Made by a program: the position numbers and the translations under genes
Shown: piece by piece, positions 43,442-56,130 of the stretch
Numbering within the stretch: position 1 is the first letter of the stretch
How the letters are laid out: every line of letters begins with the position of its first letter
The notes under the pieces: generated by a model
What the model was told of the DNA's origin: nothing
Seen by the model: only the letters and a program-made list of their open reading frames with translations
Database searches by the model: none
NCBI GenBank assembly: GCA_003134785.1
Contig: PLCN01000021.1
Location: 1 to 64,000 of the forward strand
Length of the DNA stretch: 64,000 bases
Source: Spartobacteria bacterium
GTDB taxonomy: Bacteria > Verrucomicrobiota > Verrucomicrobiia > Chthoniobacterales > UBA10450
Reading direction: 5' to 3'

Positions 43442-44809
43442 CTACTCGCGCGGACGGTGCTGGAACTTGTCCTCGATCAATCCGTGGACCAGATCGGTGA
43501 TCGCGGGATGATCCAGGCGATCGACGACTTCGTTCAAGAAACCGCTCACGAGAAGTTGTTTCGCGACCGGAAGGGGAATGCCGCGCGCGAGAAGATAAAA
43601 CATCTCTTCTTCGTTGATCTGACCGGACGTGGCGCCGTGGCTGCACTTCACGTTATCGGCCAGGATCTCCAGCCCCGGCATCGAGTTCGCCTCGGCGTCG
43701 TCGCTCAGCAAAAGATTGCGGACGGTCTGGTAGGCATCGGTGAAATGCGCATGCGGCTCCACCCGGATCAATCCGCCGAAAGTATTTCGCGCGCGATCGG
43801 TGAGCGCGTTCTTGTAAAGGAGGTCGCTTGTGGTGTGCGGAGAGATGTGATCTTGCAGCGTGCGCGCGTCGAATTCCTGCGTGCCGTCGGTGACGGCGAC
43901 CGCGAGCAAATCGCTGCGAGCGCCTTCGCCGGTGAGCCGGCTCAGACTTTCGAAGCGCGAATAAGCTCCGCCGAGATGAACGTTCAAACTCAACCCGGAC
44001 GCTTCCCGCGAAACTGTGGTGGCGTTCATTTGAATCGACAACACTTTGTCGTTCCAGTTCTGCGCGCAAATGTAATTCACCTTCGCGCCCTGGCCGACTA
44101 CGAGATCGTTCACGCCACAGGCAAACCCGGCGCGCTCCCGATGGGCGGAACGAAAATGCTCGATCACGGTCACCTTGGAAAGTTCGTCGGCGATAAGAAG
44201 AATATGCGGAAAGACCGCGGCATTCTCGCCGTGCAGCCAGTGGAAGATTTCGATCGGCAGTTCCACTTCGACGCCCCGCGGCACGTAAACAAACGTTCCG
44301 GAGGTGACCCACGCTTGATGGAGCGCCGCAAATTTCGCCGAGCCGAGCGTGGCCGGCTGCGCCATGAAATGCCGGCGAAACAAATCTTCGTGTTCGAGCA
44401 AGGCCCGCTCGAGCGGCATCAGGAGGACGCCGCGTTTGAGGAGTGGCTCGGGCAGCGGATCGCGCCGCAGCAATTGCTCGTCTGCGAAAATGAGCCGTCC
44501 CGCAACGGCGTCGAGGGCAATGGAGTGATCGAGGATTTTAGTGCGCTCCGTCTCGTTGAGTCTTGGTCCCGGCACGTAGCGAGAAAGATCGAGCGCATCG
44601 ACGCTCGAAAAACGCCAGGGCTGGTCTTTCCGATTTGGGAACGGGAGGGATTCGAACGTAGCCCAAGCCGTGCGCTGCTGATCGCGAAACCAAGCGGGCA
44701 ACTCGGCCCCGCGCGCGCCGGGAGGTCCGGAAAGAATCGCCGGCTCGGAATGTGCAAGCGGCGATTCGAGTTCCATTACTTCATCGAGAACAGCGGTCTG
44801 GTTAGTCAT
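43442..44809 (-). CDS. sufD: SufD, Fe-S cluster scaffold component
   Basis: A 455-residue SufB/SufD-family protein. It has the right-handed beta-helix core (VELPIEIFHWLHGENAAVFP, FACGVNDLVVGQGAKVNYIC) and the family end (GLEILADNVKCSHGATSGQI, LVSGFLNEVVDRLDHPAI). It is the last gene of the sufC-sufB-sufD set, 71 bp after sufB. With SufB and SufC it forms the scaffold complex that builds Fe-S clusters in the cytoplasm. Confidence 0.95.
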   Translation of the reverse strand: MTNQTAVLDEVMELESPLAHSEPAILSGPPGARGAELPAWFRDQQRTAWATFESLPFPNRKDQPWRFSSVDALDLSRYVPGPRLNETERTKILDHSIALDAVAGRLIFADEQLLRRDPLPEPLLKRGVLLMPLERALLEHEDLFRRHFMAQPATLGSAKFAALHQAWVTSGTFVYVPRGVEVELPIEIFHWLHGENAAVFPHILLIADELSKVTVIEHFRSAHRERAGFACGVNDLVVGQGAKVNYICAQNWNDKVLSIQMNATTVSREASGLSLNVHLGGAYSRFESLSRLTGEGARSDLLAVAVTDGTQEFDARTLQDHISPHTTSDLLYKNALTDRARNTFGGLIRVEPHAHFTDAYQTVRNLLLSDDAEANSMPGLEILADNVKCSHGATSGQINEEEMFYLLARGIPLPVAKQLLVSGFLNEVVDRLDHPAITDLVHGLIEDKFQHRPRE

Positions 44810-44880
44810 GCCCGAAAAATTAGACGCAAACGGCGGCCCGAAGACCGCCGCGGCTCGCTCTTGTCTTTGGGGGCGAAACC

Positions 44881-46290
44881 CTAGCCGACCGAGCCTTCCA
44901 TCTCAAGCTCGATCAAGCGCTTGAGTTCGACGCTGTATTCCATCGGGAATTGGCGCACGAGATCGTTGACGAAGCCGTTCACGCTCAAGCTCATCGCCTG
45001 CGCTTCCGTGAGGCCTCGCTGTTGCATGTAGAAAATCTGTTCCGCGCTCACCTGGCTGACGCTCGCTTCGTGCTGCACGGAGTTACCGGTGCCGCGAACC
45101 GTGATCGCGGGATAAGTGTCCGTGCGGCTGGTCGAATTGATCAGGAGCGCGTCGCACTCGGTGTTGTTCTTGCAATTCTTGAGATGCTTTGGGATGTGGA
45201 CGAGGCCGCGATAAGTGGCGCGGCCTTTCCCGATGCTGATGCTCTTGGAAATGATGTTGCTGGTGGTTTCGTCGGCGGCGTGCACCATCTTCGCGCCGGT
45301 GTCTTGGTGCTGTCCGTCACCCGCCAGCGCGATTGAGAGAACCTCGCCACGGGCACGCCGGCCTTTCATGATCACCCCGGGATATTTCATGGTCAGCCGT
45401 GAGCCGATATTGCAATCGATCCATTTTACCTCAGCGTCCTCGTGCGCGATGCCGCGCTTGGTCACCAGATTGAAAACGTTCGCCGACCAGTTTTGGACGG
45501 TGATGTACTGGAGCTTCGCGCCTTTCATTGCGACCAACTCGACCACCGCGCTATGCAAGGTGGCAGTGTTGAACTTCGGCGCTGTGCAACCTTCCATGTA
45601 GGTCAGCTCCGAGCCTTCGTCGCAAATGATGAGGGTGCGCTCGAATTGTCCGAAGTTCTCGGCATTGATTCGGAAGTAGGCCTGGAGTGGATGCTTCACC
45701 TTCACGCCCGGCGGAACGTAGATGAACGAACCGCCGCTGAAAACGGCCGAGTTCAGCGCGCTGAATTTATTGTCGCCAGTTGGGATAACTTTTCCGAACC
45801 ATTTCCGGAAAATTTCCGGATGGTTCTTCAATCCTTCGGCGCTGCCGACAAAGATGACGCCTTGTTCGCCAACGGCTTTCTTGATGTTGGAATAAACGGC
45901 CTCGCTATCGAATTGCGCTTCGACGCCAGCGAGAAATTTCCGTTCCTGCTCCGGGATTCCAAGCCGTTCGAAGGTCCGTTTCACGTCATCGGGCACATCT
46001 TCCCAGTTGCGCTTTGGCTGCGTCCCGCCGCTCAGGTAATAGCGAATATTATCGAAAACGATCGCTTCCAGATCCTTGCTCGCCCAATGCGTCGGCATCG
46101 GCTTGCTCATGAAAGTCTTGTAGGCGTTGAGCCGGAATTCGCGGACCCAATCGGGATCGTCCTTGATGTCGGAGATGTAGTGGATCGTCTTTTCCGTCAG
46201 CCCAACGCCCGCATCGTGCGTGTGCGTCTCGGGATACGCGAAATTCCCCACGTTCCGCTCGATTTCCAAAGGTGATACTTCCTTAACCAT
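44881..46290 (-). CDS. sufB: SufB, Fe-S cluster scaffold
   Basis: A 469-residue SufB with the typical N-terminus ([40 protein letters not shown]), [20 protein letters not shown] and the C-terminal [20 protein letters not shown]. The length is usual. It follows sufC by 13 bp. SufB receives sulfur for cluster assembly; no sufS or sufE/U is present in this window, so the cysteine desulfurase must be encoded elsewhere. Confidence 0.97.
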
Positions 46291-46303
46291 AAAATTCTCC
46301 TAA

Positions 46304-47077
46304 TCAGGCCATCGCCGGTTCGCCGATTTCGTCCTTCACCGTTTCGTAACTTTCGTAACCTTTTTCTTCCAATTCCAGCGCGAGTTCTTTTCCACCGCTC
46401 CGAACGATCCGGCCCTGGACCATGACGTGAACGTGATCGGGTATGATGTAATCGAGCAAGCGCTGGTAGTGCGTGATCAGGATGACGCCGAGATTCGGGC
46501 CGCGCAAGGAATTGACGCCGTGAGCCACGACCTTGAGCGCGTCGATATCGAGACCGCTGTCGGTTTCGTCGAGGACAGCGTATTTCGGCTGCAACATCGC
46601 GAGCTGGAGGATCTCGTTCCGCTTCTTTTCGCCGCCCGAAAAACCCTCGTTGACCGATCGGGAAGTGAAAGAGCGATCCATTTCCAGCAGATCCATTTTC
46701 TCGTAGAGCTTCGCGTAGTAATCCGTCGCCTCGAGTTCCTCTCCTTCAGGCAACCGTGCCTGGACCGCCGCGCGCAGAAAATTCGCGATCGTCACGCCGG
46801 GGATTTCGCTCGGATATTGAAAGGCCAGGAAGAGCCCTTTGCGCGCCCGTTCGTCCGGCGCGAGGGCGAGAATATTTTCGCCATCCATCAGGACTTCGCC
46901 CGCCGTGATTTTGTAATCAGGATGCCCGGTCAGGACTTTCGCCAGCGTGCTTTTCCCGGACCCGTTGGGCCCCATGATCGCGTGGATTTCGCCCTTTGGA
47001 ACGGCGAGCGAAAGGCCGCGAATGATCTCCTGATCGGCGATGGAGACGCGCAGATTAGTAATGGACAATTTGTTCAT
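46304..47077 (-). CDS. sufC: SufC, Fe-S assembly ATPase
   Basis: A 257-residue ABC-type ATPase: Walker [17 protein letters not shown], signature [14 protein letters not shown], and Walker [20 protein letters not shown]. The 'ExDSGLDID' form is specific to SufC. First gene of the suf operon. Confidence 0.97.
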
Positions 47078-47147: not shown

Positions 47148-47184
47148 GCCGCTACTCACGCCGCGCACAGCGCGGCGGCTACAG
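47148..47184. repeat. Palindromic repeat at the 3' end of the cyclase gene
   Basis: GCCGCTACTCACGCCGCGCA CAGCGCGGCGGCTACAGG: the hairpin ends in the GGCTACAGG core. On the minus strand its CTGTAG supplies the last codon and the stop of the cyclase gene. Confidence 0.6.
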
Positions 47185-49107
47185 GAGACCGGCTGCGCTC
47201 AAAGTCGCGGGCTGCGGCTCGATCGCGCCCAGGACTTCGAAAATCTCGAGCGGATTTGGCAGGCCCTTGATCGTCGCTTTGCCTAGCGGCCGGAGTTCGA
47301 ACTCCTCGATGACCAGCGCCATCACGTTTTCACCGACAATGAGCTCGGTCCCCAAATCCTTGGTCAACTCCTGGAGTTTCCAGCTCACATTGACGGCGTC
47401 TCCGATCACGGTGAATTCCATCCGCCGCGGCGAACCGATGTTGCCCACCACGACTTCACCGTGATTAATAGCGATGCCGATCCGAAGCGGTGGCAAACCG
47501 CGCGCCACCCAGCTTGCGTTCAACCGGGACAATTCCTCTCGCATGGCGAGAGCGGCGCGCACCGCATTGGCCGCGTCGTTTCGGACGCCTTCGCTATGCG
47601 TGTTGCCCCAAACCGCCATGACCGCATCGCCGATGAATTTGTCGAGCGTGCCGCCGAAACGAAAGACGCATTCCACCATTGCGGTCAGATATTCGTTCAG
47701 TTGCGCGACGAGCGCCTGGGGGTCGCTGCGCGCCGTCACCGAAGAGTAGCCACGAATGTCCGAGAACAGGATCGTGGCCGGTTTGATCACGCCGCCTAAC
47801 GACTGGGCGTAGAGCTTTGGTTGATCGAGCAATTCGCGCACGACGTTTTTGGAGACATATTTTTCCAGCGTCCGTCGGACCCGGTTCTTTTCGACGCGTT
47901 CCCAAGTCAGATCGGCGATGAGCCCGAACAGGACGGTGAGATTGAGTTCGGCCAACGGGGCGACCAGCGGCAATAAGATGGAAGTGCGATTGAACACGAG
48001 CAGAGCCAGCCAGGCGCCTGCGCCGTTTGCGACTGCGAGCGCAAGCAAGCGGAGCCACGGCGATCGGATGAAGAGCGACAAGGCGATCGCAATCAGTCCG
48101 GCCAGGACCGTCAGCATCACCGCAAGAGCGGGCGCGACTTCCCGAATGAACGCGCCGTGCAGCGCGGCGTTGATTGCGTTCAGATGGACTTCCGGCCCGG
48201 GCATGGAACCGAACGGCGTCGCCAATTCGTCGTGCTGCCAGTTCCCTTCCGCCCCGACGAGCACGATTTTGCCGCGAAAGAATTCCCCGGATTGATAGTT
48301 ATGCTGCCAATATTTCGGCACGAAGATTTCGAAGATGGAATGCGGGGGAAAACCCTCGCGAGGCGCGCCGGTGAAGCGGAATCTGCGTTGCCCGAGGTCC
48401 GCTGGAACGGCGGCGCCGAAACCCGCTTTGGTCAGGCCTCGTGCGGCCAGCGACAGAAAAATTTCTGAGTCGCTCTGAGGATTCCCACCGTCGACTTGCT
48501 CGAGAGTCACCCGGTACTGGGCGCTCCGAACGACTTCGTCGGCATCTGGCCAAAAATTAGTGAAGCCGACGCGGTCGTCTATGCTCGTCTCCTGAGGCAC
48601 GAGTGTCTCGGTAGGCCGCGTGTGACTGGCGCGCAGCTCATTTGCCTGGAAAAAATTACTGCCAATGACGACACGGTCGCGAAAGCGGTCCAGCGCCGAC
48701 CGAAACGGTTCGTCTCCGTCGGTGGATGTGGGAAAGGTGAGATCGAAAATGACCACTCGCGCGCCGGCCTGAACGAGCCTTTCGAGGATGAGACCGTAGA
48801 TCTCGCGAGGCCACGGGAACTTCGAACTCATCAACTGCAAGGCGCGTCGCTCCTTGATGTCGTTAGGCGCCAGCTCAAACCCGCGATCGATGTCCAGCTC
48901 GCCCTCCAAGCCCACCGAGTCCGCTTCGATCGCCATGAAAACGAGATCCGGATTCGCCGGCGTTTTTTGACCCGCGCGAGTGAGTGCATCCGCATAGGAT
49001 TTCTCGAGGCGCAGAAACGAATAGGGCTGCCGGAGATCGAGTGCGATCAAACAGACCATCCCCGCAACTGCGAGAGTAAGAATGACGAGAGCGCGCCGAT
49101 TGAACAC
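47179..49107 (-). CDS. CHASE2-domain class III nucleotide cyclase
   Basis: A 642-residue membrane protein: an N-terminal helix, a periplasmic CHASE2 domain (about 30-330; DLVFMAIEADSVGLEGELDI, GARVVIFDLTFPTSTDGDEP), three helices (about 335-415), and a cytoplasmic class III cyclase domain (about 440-625). Metal-binding Asp are in LFSDIRGYS (Asp450) and KFIGDAVMAVWG, and the Lys before FIGD favours ATP as substrate. The transition-state Arg of the usual NxxxR is replaced by Lys (Asn573, Lys577 in VNVSWKLQ), so activity may be altered. It is divergent from the outer-membrane/FecR/kinase operon, 77 bp apart. Confidence 0.93.
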   Translation of the reverse strand: MFNRRALVILTLAVAGMVCLIALDLRQPYSFLRLEKSYADALTRAGQKTPANPDLVFMAIEADSVGLEGELDIDRGFELAPNDIKERRALQLMSSKFPWPREIYGLILERLVQAGARVVIFDLTFPTSTDGDEPFRSALDRFRDRVVIGSNFFQANELRASHTRPTETLVPQETSIDDRVGFTNFWPDADEVVRSAQYRVTLEQVDGGNPQSDSEIFLSLAARGLTKAGFGAAVPADLGQRRFRFTGAPREGFPPHSIFEIFVPKYWQHNYQSGEFFRGKIVLVGAEGNWQHDELATPFGSMPGPEVHLNAINAALHGAFIREVAPALAVMLTVLAGLIAIALSLFIRSPWLRLLALAVANGAGAWLALLVFNRTSILLPLVAPLAELNLTVLFGLIADLTWERVEKNRVRRTLEKYVSKNVVRELLDQPKLYAQSLGGVIKPATILFSDIRGYSSVTARSDPQALVAQLNEYLTAMVECVFRFGGTLDKFIGDAVMAVWGNTHSEGVRNDAANAVRAALAMREELSRLNASWVARGLPPLRIGIAINHGEVVVGNIGSPRRMEFTVIGDAVNVSWKLQELTKDLGTELIVGENVMALVIEEFELRPLGKATIKGLPNPLEIFEVLGAIEPQPATLSAAGLL

Positions 49108-49184
49108 CGGACAAGCGGGGAGCGGAAAGCGTGCCGTGGTGGACGCCGCGCCGAAGGCGGCATAGACCCTGCTAAACCTCGTGC

Positions 49185-50117
49185 GTGGCCTATTTCACGA
49201 AAGGCGTCTGCTGTCTTCTTACTTTGTCGCTCCTCCGAACTGTTCCCGCGCAGGACGCGGGTGCCATCGTGGAGCGCGCGCGTCTCTTGCAGAAAACTCC
49301 GGGCACGACGCCGGAAGCGGTTAACTCGGACGAAGTCACTGCCTCCCCAGACAATTCAACCGAAGACGACAGCTTCGGCCGGCAACTGATCCTCAAAAAG
49401 AAGGAACGGCCGCGTCCATTTACTCTCAGCGGGGACGCCGGGACGTTTTTCACGAACAACGCGGCCCTTATCCGCCACGACACGCAGAGCGATTTCTTAT
49501 TCATGGCCAACGCGGGGCTCAGTTGGAATGGGCAGCTCGCGAACGACGTTACCCTGCAACTCGGAGGCCAGGCCTCAACTTTTCGTTACGCCAGGATGTC
49601 GTCGCTCGACTTCGAGAGCCTCGGGGCTGGCGCCGGCATATCATGGACGCCCGCGCGTTTGAACGGCGTGAGTTTCTCAGCGCGCTACGATTTCATCGAG
49701 CTTTTGAATCGTCACAGCCGGGAAGTGTTGAGCGACCACGAGTGGACGCTGGCGGCGCAAAAAACCTTTACCCTCGGCGGACCGCACGCGTTCACGCTGG
49801 GCGTTGTCGGCATGGCTGGCGTGACCGATCCGCACTCGGCCCAGCGCGATCTGGCCGGCGGTTTCGCCCGGTATCATTTGCAGGTCACACGACGGCTGGA
49901 CACCGATCTCAGCTACCGGCTCTCCCCCTATTTTTACAATTCGGGAGGCCGGACCGACGTGAATCACGTCGCATCCTGGAACGTGCGCTATCGAGTCTCG
50001 CCGGACGTCGAGCTGAACGGCTTTGTCTCCTACGCGAGTAATCGATCGAACCGCCGTGCCTTCAATTACGATGCCGTTACTACTGGGCTGGGTGTGGGAG
50101 TTGTCATCCGCTTCTGA
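49185..50117 (+). CDS. Outer-membrane beta-barrel protein
   Basis: A 310-residue exported protein (GTG start; signal about 1-22). An acidic linker (about 45-65) is followed by alternating aromatic/hydrophobic strands (FLFMANAGLSWNGQ, VTLQLGGQASTFRY, RLDTDLSYRLSPYFYN) ending in VGVVIRF with the C-terminal Phe typical of BAM substrates. It resembles small capsule- or polysaccharide-export-type outer-membrane barrels without an identifiable family. First gene of a four-gene operon with the FecR protein and two signalling proteins. Confidence 0.75.
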   Translation: MAYFTKGVCCLLTLSLLRTVPAQDAGAIVERARLLQKTPGTTPEAVNSDEVTASPDNSTEDDSFGRQLILKKKERPRPFTLSGDAGTFFTNNAALIRHDTQSDFLFMANAGLSWNGQLANDVTLQLGGQASTFRYARMSSLDFESLGAGAGISWTPARLNGVSFSARYDFIELLNRHSREVLSDHEWTLAAQKTFTLGGPHAFTLGVVGMAGVTDPHSAQRDLAGGFARYHLQVTRRLDTDLSYRLSPYFYNSGGRTDVNHVASWNVRYRVSPDVELNGFVSYASNRSNRRAFNYDAVTTGLGVGVVIRF

Positions 50118-50149
50118 CCTTCCTTCTTCTGGAAATTATAAGAGAAGGC

Positions 50150-51691
50150 ATGCCACCTGCTAAATCGAAGGACACCATGGCGCGCCCTTCTTCTCTCCAG
50201 ATTGCTTTGCTGAGCGCGGGTTATTGGCTGGCGGCGACCACACCAGGTTTCGCAGGCCCCTTGCTCGAAGCCCGCGTCACCAAGATTATCAATGTGGTCA
50301 ACGTCGTGGAACCGGCGCGCGGCTCGCATCCGGCCTCATTCAACGAACTGATCAAGGATGAGGTGGCCCTCAAGACCGGTGTAAAATCCCGGTCCGAACT
50401 TTTATTCCAGGACAACACGCTGACCCGCATCGGACCGGAAACGTATTTCAGTTTTAAGGCGGGCACGCGCGACATGACGCTCGAGCAGGGAACGCTTCTG
50501 CTTCAGGTGCCGAAAGGAATTGGCGGAGCAAAGATCCGAACTGCGGCGGTCACGGCCTCCATCACCGGCACGACCATTATGATGGAGTATAGACCCGGCC
50601 ATGATCTGAAAGTGCTCGTGCTCGAAGGCAGCTTGCGTCTTTCCCTCAACGGCAGGTTGGGCGAGCAGATTTCGTTGCGACCGGGGCAGATGATCATGAT
50701 GCCGCCGGACGCCAAGAAGATTCCGCAGCCGGTGCACGTCGACCTCAAGCAGGTGATGAAAACGTCGTCGCTCGTGAACATGTCGAAAAAAGGCAACGCG
50801 CCGTTGCCCAGCGTCGCCTTGATTCAGAAGTCGATCGACGAGCAGACGGTCGAGAAAAGCAATAACACGCTCGTGGCCACGAACCTCACGATCGAAGGAA
50901 AAGGCACGGACGTAGTTGTCGGCACGGATTCGTTGATTGCCGCGGTCAGCCGCCACGACGATGCAACCAGCGGGGTAACCCAGGCGGCGGGAAACCCTCA
51001 GCCCACTCCGGTCCCTGTTGCGACTCCCGCCCTCACTCCAACGCCCGATCTAAATCCAACGCCGAACCCGCAGGGGACGCCAAACCCCTCACCGTCGCCA
51101 GCCTCCAGCGCCACGCCCCAGCCAACCGTTTCTCCGCAACCGACGGCAAGCGCCACCCCGAGATCTACTGCAACGCCGGGACCTACTGCAACGCCGGGAC
51201 CTACTGCGACACCGAGACCTACTGCAACGCCCAGGCCGACCGCAACCCCGCATCCCACCGCCACACCCGGCGATGACGATGATGACGGCAAGGGCGGCAA
51301 AAAGAGGAGACACGAGGAGCATGCGCCGCCGTCCAGTTCGCCGAATGGTCAGAATGGAAACGACTCCAGCGCTGCACCACAGCTCTCCGACGGCAAGAAG
51401 TCCAGAACGAACATGACTCTTCCGCTCCTGGTGAATCGGGACCGCGTCATCCATCTCCGAAACAGCGAACAACTCGTTTCTCTGATGGAAACTTCGACCA
51501 ATGGTCCGGGTGGCCGGGTGCGCGTGCAGCTACCTGCCCCAGGCGTTCGCGGCGCTAATTCCACCAGCCGCAATGCTAATCCCCGAACCGCGAGAGCGGG
51601 ACCGGAATCGGTCCGACTTCCGGGAAAAAATCCTTCCGTGGACCTGTCTCCTGCCATGCGCGAACGCATGCGCTCTGGCCTTTCGCCCTAG
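50150..51691 (+). CDS. Periplasmic FecR-domain protein
   Basis: A 513-residue exported protein (signal about 10-35). The FecR domain (about 70-190) reads LKTGVKSRSELLFQDNTLTR, TYFSFKAGTRDMTLEQGTLL, KIRTAAVTASITGTTIM and VLEGSLRLSLNGRLGEQISL. After ~280 comes a linker of imperfect PTATPG/PTATPR repeats (about 285-375) and an acidic then basic stretch (GDDDDDGKGGKKRRHEEH). In TonB systems FecR links an outer-membrane signal to a sigma factor; here no sigma factor or transporter is present. It starts 32 bp after the beta-barrel gene and ends 4 bp before the receiver gene. Confidence 0.9.
   Translation: MPPAKSKDTMARPSSLQIALLSAGYWLAATTPGFAGPLLEARVTKIINVVNVVEPARGSHPASFNELIKDEVALKTGVKSRSELLFQDNTLTRIGPETYFSFKAGTRDMTLEQGTLLLQVPKGIGGAKIRTAAVTASITGTTIMMEYRPGHDLKVLVLEGSLRLSLNGRLGEQISLRPGQMIMMPPDAKKIPQPVHVDLKQVMKTSSLVNMSKKGNAPLPSVALIQKSIDEQTVEKSNNTLVATNLTIEGKGTDVVVGTDSLIAAVSRHDDATSGVTQAAGNPQPTPVPVATPALTPTPDLNPTPNPQGTPNPSPSPASSATPQPTVSPQPTASATPRSTATPGPTATPGPTATPRPTATPRPTATPHPTATPGDDDDDGKGGKKRRHEEHAPPSSSPNGQNGNDSSAAPQLSDGKKSRTNMTLPLLVNRDRVIHLRNSEQLVSLMETSTNGPGGRVRVQLPAPGVRGANSTSRNANPRTARAGPESVRLPGKNPSVDLSPAMRERMRSGLSP
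51156..51270. repeat. Tandem 18-bp repeats coding PTATPG/PTATPR
   Basis: Six or so imperfect copies of an 18-bp unit (core CCTACTGCAACGCCGGGA) within the FecR gene. They encode the Pro-Thr-Ala linker and are a likely site of copy-number change. Confidence 0.75.
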
Positions 51692-51695
51692 CAAA

Positions 51696-52415
51696 ATGGA
51701 AATTCCATCCGACGGATCAAAACAACCCGCTCAGGACGCCGGAAAAAAAGCGGCGAGCGAGCTAAATAATTTGCTGGAGATCATTTCCGGGACCAGTGCG
51801 GCCATCGAGAATATCTGGGTTGGAAACGACGCCTCGGAAAAATATTTCGGCATGCTGCGCACGAGCGTCGATCGCGCGGCGCAGGTGACGGCGCAGCTCG
51901 TCGAGCACGCGGGTGGTTCGGATAAAAAAGTCTTATTCCATCCCGAGATCACCGCCTTCGCCAAGGCCAGGAAAACACCGCCGCCCACGCCAGTGAAGTC
52001 ACGCCGGCTTTTGGTGGTGGATGACGAACCAATGGCCGTAGTTCTGGGCAAGCGCATTCTGTCGGAAGCCGGCTTCGAGGTCACGACCGCTCAATCGGGT
52101 TTTGAATGCCTCGATCTCTTCCGCAAGCAACCGCACCACTTTGATCTAATCCTGCTCGATCTCTCGATGCCGTTCATGGACGGTGAAGAAACTTTTGGCC
52201 GTCTCCGCGCAATTCGCCCCGATGTCGTCGTTCTTTTGAGCACGGGTTTTATCGCGCAGGAAAGGCTCGACCGTATGCTTGCCGCAGGCATGGCCGGCTT
52301 TTTGCGAAAACCTCATCGCCCCGCTGAACTCGTAGCCTATATCCGCTCCGTGCTGGAAGGCGTGAAGATGTCCCGCGCCGGCTGCGTCGCAGGTCCGCTC
52401 GCCTCCTCTTTTTAG
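51696..52415 (+). CDS. Receiver protein with a degenerate dimerisation domain
   Basis: A 239-residue protein. Residues about 17-75 (SELNNLLEIISGTSAAIENI, DRAAQVTAQLVEHAG) look like the helical dimerisation domain of hybrid kinases but lack the phosphorylatable His (SELNN instead of HDLNN). A full receiver domain follows (about 105-225; LLVVDDEPMAVVLGKRI, LILLDLSMPFMDGEE, LLSTGF, FLRKPH). There is no ATPase or DNA-binding domain. I chose ATG 51696, 4 bp after the FecR stop. It is 9 bp before the kinase gene and is probably its partner. Confidence 0.85.
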   Translation: MEIPSDGSKQPAQDAGKKAASELNNLLEIISGTSAAIENIWVGNDASEKYFGMLRTSVDRAAQVTAQLVEHAGGSDKKVLFHPEITAFAKARKTPPPTPVKSRRLLVVDDEPMAVVLGKRILSEAGFEVTTAQSGFECLDLFRKQPHHFDLILLDLSMPFMDGEETFGRLRAIRPDVVVLLSTGFIAQERLDRMLAAGMAGFLRKPHRPAELVAYIRSVLEGVKMSRAGCVAGPLASSF

Positions 52416-52424
52416 CTGCATGCC

Positions 52425-53552
52425 ATGAGCTCCTCTCTCGCCAAGGCCTTCGATCAGTTATCTCAGAACCGACTCTTCGAAGGGCTCGAATCGGATTTGC
52501 TCAGCGAAATCGCGCCCGATGTTCACGTCGTCCGATTGAGCGCGGGCGAGGTCATTTTTCGCGAAGGTGATCCGGGAGACGTGATGTATTTGGTCGGGGA
52601 AGGCTCAGTGAAGATTTCCAAGTCCGGCCGCGGTGGTCAGCAGGAAACGCTCGGCTTCATTCAATCGGGAAACTTTTTTGGCGAAATGGCGTTACTCGAT
52701 GGCGAGCCGCGCTCCGCCATGGCTACGGCCGCGGAGCCGACGCTTCTCGGCACCGTGGACGAGCCGACCTTTCAGCATATTCTCGAGCTCGCGCCCAGCC
52801 GCTTGCACATGAATTTTTTGCGCTCGGTCTCGGAGCGGCTCCGCACGGTGAATTCGCATTTTATCAGCGAAGTCATGCGCACCGAACGGCTGAGCCTGGT
52901 CGGCTCGATGGCGAATTCCATCATTCACGACCTGAAGAACCCCATTTGCATCATCCGTTGCTGCACGGATTTGATCGCCGGAGAAAGCAAAGATCCCCGC
53001 CTGCTCGAGCTGACGTCGATGGCGGACAAGGCCGTGGATGGAATGCTCGCGATGACCCAAGAGCTGCTCGACTACGCGCGCGGCTCGACCTCGCTTTCCT
53101 GCGAAACCGTTTCGATCTGGCGTCTGCTCGATGAATTGAACCAGCAATCGCTTCGCCTCCTGCCCGGGCAAAACATTCAGTTCGCCAAGAACATCCGTTA
53201 CGACGGGAACGTCATCGTCGATCTTGCGCGCTTCATTCGCGTGCTCTGCAATTTGATCAAGAACGCGCGGGAAGCGATGCCGAGCGGCGGAATTCTGACC
53301 ATCACCACCGATCTCGTCGGCAATCAGGTCGTCATCCGCATCTCTGACACGGGGATCGGGATTCCCGAGGACCTCATGCCGAAACTCTTCGAGCCTTTCG
53401 TCACGCACGGGAAGTCACACGGGACCGGTCTCGGAATGGCGATCGCCAAGTCCGTCGTGACCGCGCACCAGGGAAAGATTTCGATCAGCAGCGTGCAGGG
53501 CAAGGGCACAACCGTCGACATCCGTCTTCCCGCGCCGCCTGCGCCATTGTAG
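52425..53552 (+). CDS. Cyclic-nucleotide-binding sensor histidine kinase
   Basis: A 375-residue soluble kinase. An N-terminal cNMP-binding domain (about 12-130) carries the phosphate-binding cassette NFFGEMALLDGEPRSA (about 82-97) with the Arg-Ser-Ala of cAMP binders. The dimerisation helix has SIIHDLKNPICIIRC (His near 168), followed by a complete HATPase: NLIKNAREAMP (N box, near 276), ISDTGIGIPED, LFEPFVTHGKSHGTGLGMAI. No membrane segment. cAMP from the divergent cyclase is the likely input and the upstream receiver protein the likely output; both links are inferred from context. Confidence 0.93.
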   Translation: MSSSLAKAFDQLSQNRLFEGLESDLLSEIAPDVHVVRLSAGEVIFREGDPGDVMYLVGEGSVKISKSGRGGQQETLGFIQSGNFFGEMALLDGEPRSAMATAAEPTLLGTVDEPTFQHILELAPSRLHMNFLRSVSERLRTVNSHFISEVMRTERLSLVGSMANSIIHDLKNPICIIRCCTDLIAGESKDPRLLELTSMADKAVDGMLAMTQELLDYARGSTSLSCETVSIWRLLDELNQQSLRLLPGQNIQFAKNIRYDGNVIVDLARFIRVLCNLIKNAREAMPSGGILTITTDLVGNQVVIRISDTGIGIPEDLMPKLFEPFVTHGKSHGTGLGMAIAKSVVTAHQGKISISSVQGKGTTVDIRLPAPPAPL

Positions 53553-53670: not shown

Positions 53671-53744
53671 TACCCCGTGGTGTAACGGTAACACAGCGCC
53701 CTTTGGAGGCGTTATTCATGGTTCGAATCCATGCGGGGTAGCCA
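53671..53744 (+). tRNA. tRNA-Gln(TTG)
   Basis: A complete cloverleaf with 7-bp acceptor (TACCCCG/CGGGGTA), D-arm GTGTAACGGTAACAC, anticodon stem GCGCC/GGCGT with loop CTTTGGA (anticodon TTG, bases 53703-53705), T-arm CATGGTTCGAATCCATG and encoded CCA end. It reads CAA glutamine codons. Confidence 0.93.
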
Positions 53745-55758: not shown

Positions 55759-56130
55759 ATGGACGCATCTCTGAGAATCCTGGCGGTCGATAACGAACCG
55801 TCGGTGACACTCTCCCTGAAGTTTGTCTTCACCGCGCCGCGCTACGAGTTGACCTGCGTTGACAGCGGCCAGGCCGCGCTCGCCAAACTCGATGCCAATG
55901 CGAACCCGTTTGATGTCATCATCGTCGACCAAAAAATGCCGAATCTGAGCGGCGCGGAATTGGTCGGCGCGATAAGGCAACGCGGAATCACCAGTAAGAT
56001 TATCGCCGTATCGGCGCACCTCTCTTCGGAAGTTCGTGAGGCTTACGCACGGATGGATGTGCACGAGATGTTCTCCAAGCCTTTTGACGTTGCCGAACTC
56101 CGTTCCGCCGTCGATCGCCTCGCCGCCTGA
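55759..56130 (+). CDS. Single-domain response regulator
   Basis: A 123-residue receiver (LRILAVDNEPSVTLSLKFVF, VIIVDQKMPNLSGAEL with the phosphoacceptor Asp, IIAVSAHL, MFSKPFDVAELR with the conserved Lys). The acidic pair before the phospho-Asp is VDNE. There is no output domain; it may act by protein contact. Its kinase is not adjacent. Confidence 0.92.
   Translation: MDASLRILAVDNEPSVTLSLKFVFTAPRYELTCVDSGQAALAKLDANANPFDVIIVDQKMPNLSGAELVGAIRQRGITSKIIAVSAHLSSEVREAYARMDVHEMFSKPFDVAELRSAVDRLAA

Follow-up and report, generated by a model that had tools for sequence, protein, structure and literature searches.

Here we describe a locus in a 64,000-nucleotide stretch of Spartobacteria bacterium DNA (GenBank assembly GCA_003134785.1, contig PLCN01000021.1, positions 1 to 64,000; hereafter the window), in which a gene for a CHASE2 class III nucleotidyl cyclase stands divergent from four genes encoding an outer-membrane barrel, a FecR-domain protein, a response-regulator receiver and a histidine kinase with a cyclic nucleoside monophosphate (cNMP)-binding domain. 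We suggest, with a probability of roughly one half, that these proteins form a circuit in which an envelope-sensing cyclase supplies a cyclic nucleotide to a cNMP-gated kinase, which would in turn act on the receiver. The proposal builds on the gene set itself, the selection acting on it, the intact motifs of kinase and receiver, the cNMP pocket, a recurrent linkage of cyclase and kinase, and a sister clade of CHASE2 kinases, all read from sequence and genome comparison.

In the proposed mechanism, the barrel, the FecR protein and the CHASE2 ectodomain would contact one another and act as the envelope sensor. The cytoplasmic cyclase domain of the stimulated CHASE2 protein would then make a cyclic nucleotide, by residue preference cyclic AMP (cAMP), which would bind the cNMP domain of the adjacent soluble kinase and alter its autophosphorylation or phosphatase activity. 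Phosphate would then pass between the kinase and the co-encoded receiver, and the receiver would presumably act through protein contact, since no DNA-binding domain was detected in it.

The locus and the recurrent cyclase-kinase linkage

The five open reading frames (ORFs) lie at 47179-53552. The cyclase gene (642 aa; 47179..49107, minus strand) is separated by a 77-bp divergent intergenic region (49108..49184) from four plus-strand genes, for the barrel (49185..50117, GTG start), the FecR protein (50150..51691), the receiver (51696..52415) and the kinase (52425..53552), which follow one another at gaps of 32, 4 and 9 bp. Sequence read-out confirmed the places, strands and gaps that an initial annotation of the window had given for all five, and Pfam supported its domain calls; the DHp-like (dimerisation and histidine phosphotransfer) domain at the N-terminus of the receiver and the suf genes beyond the cyclase were absent from it. 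Purifying selection acts on all five, as ratios of nonsynonymous to synonymous substitution rates (dN/dS) of 0.07-0.20 against the congener G001 show.

The kinase, which carries its cNMP-binding domain at the N-terminus, matches cNMP_binding (9e-24), HisKA (4e-6) and HATPase_c (8e-27) in Pfam. Its phosphate-binding cassette is NFFGEMALLDGEPRSA, in which Glu87 and Arg96 are the cyclic-nucleotide contacts, and the closest solved cNMP domains in the PDB include the regulatory domains of PKA and PKG. Alignments indicate that the phospho-acceptor His168, Asn280 and Asp308/Gly310 of the H, N and G boxes are intact, as are the acidic pair, Asp, Thr and Lys of the receiver (Response_reg, 1e-22).

The comparison sample comprised about 480 genomes; the kinase, the cyclase and the FecR protein were each used as a query against 98 relatives, and the neighbourhoods were then read. 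A CHASE2 cyclase lies at most about 6 kb from a cNMP kinase in the window genome (G000), G001, G009 (two loci), G032, G062 and G412, giving seven single-contig loci from three families and more than one kinase paralog group, in addition to G044, where the locus is split between contigs. Four of these loci (G009:C91, G032, G062 and G412; three families) lie beyond the exact five-gene set and differ in order or kinase paralog: all have a barrel-FecR-kinase series, with the cyclase divergent in G009:C91, G032 and G412 and convergent in G062. The gap between the FecR and kinase genes is 6-7 bp in G412 and 13 bp in G032. The latter genome retains the receiver beside sufC and a cyclase that groups with the window type, but another paralog, its pocket intact, takes the place of the kinase; in G020, of the same genus, this paralog directly follows a receiver fragment. 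Of the 14 kinases of this type in the class-wide sample, five have a linked CHASE2 cyclase, for which the chance expectation is P 2e-7 to 1e-4 by a naive calculation that ignores shared ancestry. Outside the window's order, no such linkage was seen among the class-wide matches listed.

Glu87, Arg96 and His168 are kept in 8/8 linked kinases, including that of the split-contig G044. The window's own group contains 19 unlinked kinases: Arg96 has become His in 13 of them, five of which lack Glu87 as well, and the phospho-acceptor His is gone from three of the 19. This loss of the pocket agrees with a relaxation of selection where no cyclase is present. Replacement of the phospho-acceptor His by Gln or Arg was noted in the kinase genes of L088, L092 and L098, all loci without a cyclase. 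Separately, an apparent frameshift divides the gene of a second cNMP kinase in G002 into two ORFs (L118:9391-10552).

The initial annotation had placed the five genes in one circuit; the comparison shows that they are not one conserved unit. Of the genomes sampled, three have the exact set (in the window, G001 and G009:C119), which is rare, although the cyclase-kinase link recurs; we rejected a conserved five-gene operon as the general form, as two modules fit the neighbourhoods better. Module A is spread across the order and pairs a CHASE2 gene with divergently oriented genes for a 12-strand barrel and a periplasmic FecR protein. Module B comprises the receiver and the cNMP-binding histidine kinase; with few exceptions, the family loci whose contigs span the region have it immediately next to sufC in divergent orientation, normally without module A; where the full set occurs, module A sits between sufC and the receiver. 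In G039 a FecR fragment alone remains at the site of module A, which suggests that the module decayed there. A quick tree with several open forks places the linked kinases of G009 and G044 basally within the kinase group of the window, and the combined locus may for this reason be ancestral, with later loss.

The putative sensor module and the receiver

In G001:C43, G010, G017, G028, G045, G051 and G053, the CHASE2 protein beside FecR ends in HisKA-HATPase and has no cyclase domain, and the barrel gene is also present in several of these loci. The CHASE2 kinases match the window protein up to residue ~415, which is the end of the membrane region. In a CHASE2 tree, read without the branches of some wrong-frame ORFs from L026-L050, the CHASE2 domains of window-type cyclases are sister to the CHASE2-kinase clade (SH-like approximate likelihood-ratio test, SH-aLRT, 99). 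Judged by these sequences, the barrel, FecR and CHASE2 are a recurrent module with either a cyclase or a kinase output; therefore one kind of sensor seems to be coupled to a kinase directly or, putatively, by way of a cyclic nucleotide that acts on a kinase encoded separately. We only tentatively extend this to the idea that the same sensor is wired in two interchangeable ways within one order, one ending directly in a histidine kinase, the other passing via a cyclic nucleotide to a soluble cNMP-gated kinase and a receiver with a pseudo-DHp domain.

The barrel matches BBP2_2 (8e-6) in Pfam, is modelled by AlphaFold2 with 12 strands at a predicted local distance difference test (pLDDT) score of ~90, and resembles solved outer-membrane barrels and porins in a fold search; neither Pfam nor the model shows a TonB receptor domain. 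The FecR protein has a single FecR domain (2e-9, residues 74-162), an N-terminus that is signal-peptide-like by eye, and a Pro/Thr-rich C-terminal linker that evolves fast (dN/dS 0.29 vs 0.13 in the N-terminal half). Its gene repeatedly adjoins CHASE2 genes in relatives. Pfam shows the periplasmic FecR domain only, with no cytoplasmic anti-sigma domain detected, and no extracytoplasmic function (ECF) sigma factor was identified near the locus, where neighbouring ORFs were scanned in part. With neither a TonB receptor nor an ECF sigma factor identified, the earlier idea that FecR relays outer-membrane signals here stands as an analogy.

The N-terminal ~75 residues of the receiver are predicted, with moderate confidence, to form a two-helix hairpin and give weak HisKA matches in 10/18 members. 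Profile comparison identifies an N-terminal domain of ~65 residues as a homolog of the DHp domain in the adjoining kinase (hhalign probability 93%); the position of the phospho-acceptor His is Ser in the window protein, and His is kept in G010. A fold search with the receiver model returned a list filled by receiver domains and so did not address the hairpin. Pfam detected no DNA-binding or other output domain in the receiver, so that a role through protein-protein contact is most likely as judged from its sequence.

Points against the proposed circuit and alternative readings

Several observations weigh against the proposed circuit. In the family, a receiver-kinase pair mostly occurs without an adjoining cyclase. 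Once phylogeny is taken into account, linkage and pocket integrity show no significant association (median p = 1 over independent pairs from the tree), and we dropped a statistical claim of correlated pocket loss on that ground. The window cyclase does not have the transition-state Arg of the Asn-Arg pair; Lys577 takes its place, with Asn573 kept, and the same substitution is found in 6/8 linked cyclases (window, G001, both loci of G009, G032 and G044). Since the conserved Asn/Arg pair is reported to be essential in mammalian adenylyl cyclase (Yan 1997, as cited in PMC4215837), the cyclase activity may be low. Domain searches of the genome, which is 97% complete, gave, above the cut-off, 11 matches for class III cyclase domains and seven for cNMP domains, and five CHASE2 proteins are encoded, so that a private circuit is not guaranteed. 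Finally, in Sinorhizobium meliloti, whose CHASE2 cyclases are compared below, the gene of the FecR protein SMc02177 lies nearby and the protein is not needed for perceiving the tested signal (PMC5498481).

An alternative that we consider unlikely holds that the receiver-kinase pair stands alone, tied to suf, and that module A was inserted between sufC and the receiver as a functionally independent passenger. The receiver and sufC are indeed divergent neighbours in nearly all covered family loci with or without module A, and G002 and G007, both congeners of the window genome, keep an intact pair and have no module A. However, this alternative does not readily account for G009:C91, G062 and G412, loci remote from suf in which other kinase paralogs are linked, no receiver adjoins, and the FecR and kinase genes nearly touch. 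Confinement of the pocket loss to unlinked kinases also weighs against it.

The catalytic state of the cyclase bears on a second, more doubtful alternative. The protein matches both CHASE2 (9e-31) and Guanylate_cyc (8e-17) and is by sequence a class III family homolog, for which we do not claim catalytic membership because one defining residue, the transition-state Arg, is replaced. According to the residue table, the metal-binding Asp450 and Asp494 are present, and Lys490, Asp570 and Asn573 are also kept (roles of the substrate residues taken from PMC4215837); the Lys490/Asp570 pair points to ATP, i.e. to cAMP by residue preference. The earlier claim that the cyclase makes cAMP is made uncertain by Lys577. 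Conceivably the Lys577 domain is weak or dead and serves for dimerisation or protein contact, with the kinase reading the nucleotide of other cyclases, of which the 11 domain matches would offer a choice; consistent with this, the unlinked CHASE2 cyclases examined all have the Arg that those six linked ones have exchanged. Against it, both metal Asp residues, the purine Lys and the Asn are kept in the cyclases, the cyclase domain is under the strongest constraint at the locus (dN/dS 0.05 against G001), Lys could preserve the charge, and the linked cyclases of G062 and G412 retain the Arg.

Least probable is a cyclase that feeds a cell-wide cAMP pool, with the adjacent kinase as one reader among the several cNMP proteins of a genome that also holds further cyclases, as the recurrence of the linkage and the refilling of the kinase slot by another paralog (G032, G020) point to a dedicated pairing. 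In favour of the proposed circuit, no Crp-type protein with a cNMP and a helix-turn-helix (HTH) domain was found in the 97%-complete genome, its single HTH_Crp_2 match being a MarR-like protein by eye. None of the cNMP proteins examined besides the kinase is of Crp type; they include an MscS channel, a ferredoxin-like protein and a thioredoxin-reductase-like protein, each with a cNMP domain, as well as two short proteins made up of that domain alone and one of unclear type. The MscS-type channel carries its cNMP-binding domain at the C-terminus (L235:2551-4242), and several cNMP-binding domains are followed by 4Fe-4S ferredoxin domains in one protein (L236:10483-12162).

The circuit first put forward in the initial annotation retains its basis in genes under selection, a cyclase-kinase link in seven loci, intact motifs and pocket, and a recurrent module of barrel, FecR and CHASE2; its five genes are, however, not one conserved unit. 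If the cyclase switches the adjacent kinase, it would provide a direct link from a second messenger to a phosphorelay in bacteria; in a lineage without Crp, the phosphorelay would then be the readout of cAMP and a bacterial counterpart of cyclic-nucleotide-controlled kinases. The natural series of a CHASE2 cyclase with a cNMP kinase, a CHASE2 kinase, and a degenerate pocket without a cyclase makes the idea testable with few proteins. It also offers a route to the roles of FecR and barrel partners for CHASE2 sensors, the ligands of which are mostly unknown.

Neighbouring genes and comparison with known systems

The sufC-sufB-sufD cluster (43442..47077, minus strand) lies directly beyond the cyclase. 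Within the family it constantly accompanies the receiver-kinase pair, and it is not thought to belong to the proposed circuit. No promoter-like site was found in the 77-bp region between cyclase and barrel, and promoter and terminator scans gave results at chance level. A tRNA-Gln gene (TTG anticodon; 53671-53744, plus strand) lies shortly 3' of the kinase gene, and a stand-alone receiver-domain protein is encoded ~2.2 kb 3' of it (55759-56130, plus strand).

A metallo-beta-lactamase (MBL)-fold gene follows the kinase in G009:C91 and G032. MBL-fold hydrolases (PF12706) were observed directly 3' of type II cNMP kinases (L107:142-1107, L105:7031-7972, L104:1535-2509), and homologs fused to receiver domains occur in the window's own genome (L235:7182-8510, L236:4848-6245). 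We considered the hydrolases beside type II kinases as cAMP phosphodiesterases and retained only the superfamily assignment; from sequence, a cyclic-nucleotide phosphodiesterase is possible. FHA-domain class III cyclase or cyclase-like genes stand no more than ~4 kb from the cNMP kinase genes of G064, G088 and G017 (L111:12053-12973, L113:4168-5109 and L109:8380-9255).

Two known systems resemble the locus in part and were rejected as explanations. Fec-type cell-surface signalling (FecA-FecR-FecI) likewise combines a FecR-domain protein with an outer-membrane protein; however, its TonB-dependent receptor, ECF sigma factor and FecR anti-sigma region were not identified among the ORFs scanned at the locus. 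The window cyclase and cNMP domains also score against the PADLOC models of Pycsar defence, which we attribute to shared cyclase and cNMP homology; the adjoining cNMP protein is a histidine kinase, a TIR or membrane effector gene is absent, and a CHASE2 sensor with a kinase and receiver is found instead.

The sensory half of the locus is already known from three precedents. In Campylobacterota, a CHASE2 adenylate cyclase is clustered with a phosphodiesterase, a FecR outer-membrane protein and a TPR protein (PMC9239204). The window similarly has a CHASE2 cyclase beside a FecR-domain envelope protein; it belongs to another phylum, the Verrucomicrobiota, and a cNMP kinase and a receiver stand in place of adjacent phosphodiesterase and TPR genes. 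The Burkholderia BiofilmReg operon encodes a receiver, a LysM/FecR protein and a CHASE2 histidine kinase (PMC5192318), sharing with the window a CHASE2 sensor, FecR and a two-component output, and resembling the CHASE2-kinase variant of the relatives (L122-L130). It differs in that the kinase is fused to CHASE2, no cyclic-nucleotide step intervenes, and the receiver has a DNA-binding domain.

In S. meliloti, the CHASE2 cyclases CyaD1, CyaD2 and CyaK raise cAMP in response to a plant signal that the outer-membrane barrel NsrA perceives; the reader of this cAMP is the Crp-family factor Clr (PMC13001267, PMC7529298). CHASE2 class III cyclases, an outer-membrane barrel and a nearby FecR gene are common to this system and the window, the barrels being compared by role and not by homology. 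The readout is Clr in S. meliloti, whereas the candidate receptor in the window, where no Crp-type protein was found, is the adjacent cNMP-domain kinase. As clusters of CHASE2 cyclase, FecR and outer-membrane protein as well as CHASE2-kinase/FecR operons are published (PMC9239204, PMC5192318), describing the locus as undescribed is appropriate only for its kinase half; in the open-access papers searched, judged by titles and abstracts and without this being proof of absence, we found no description of a cAMP-gated bacterial histidine kinase. The new part is therefore likely to be a readout by a cNMP kinase and a pseudo-DHp receiver, placed on a known type of envelope-sensing cyclase.

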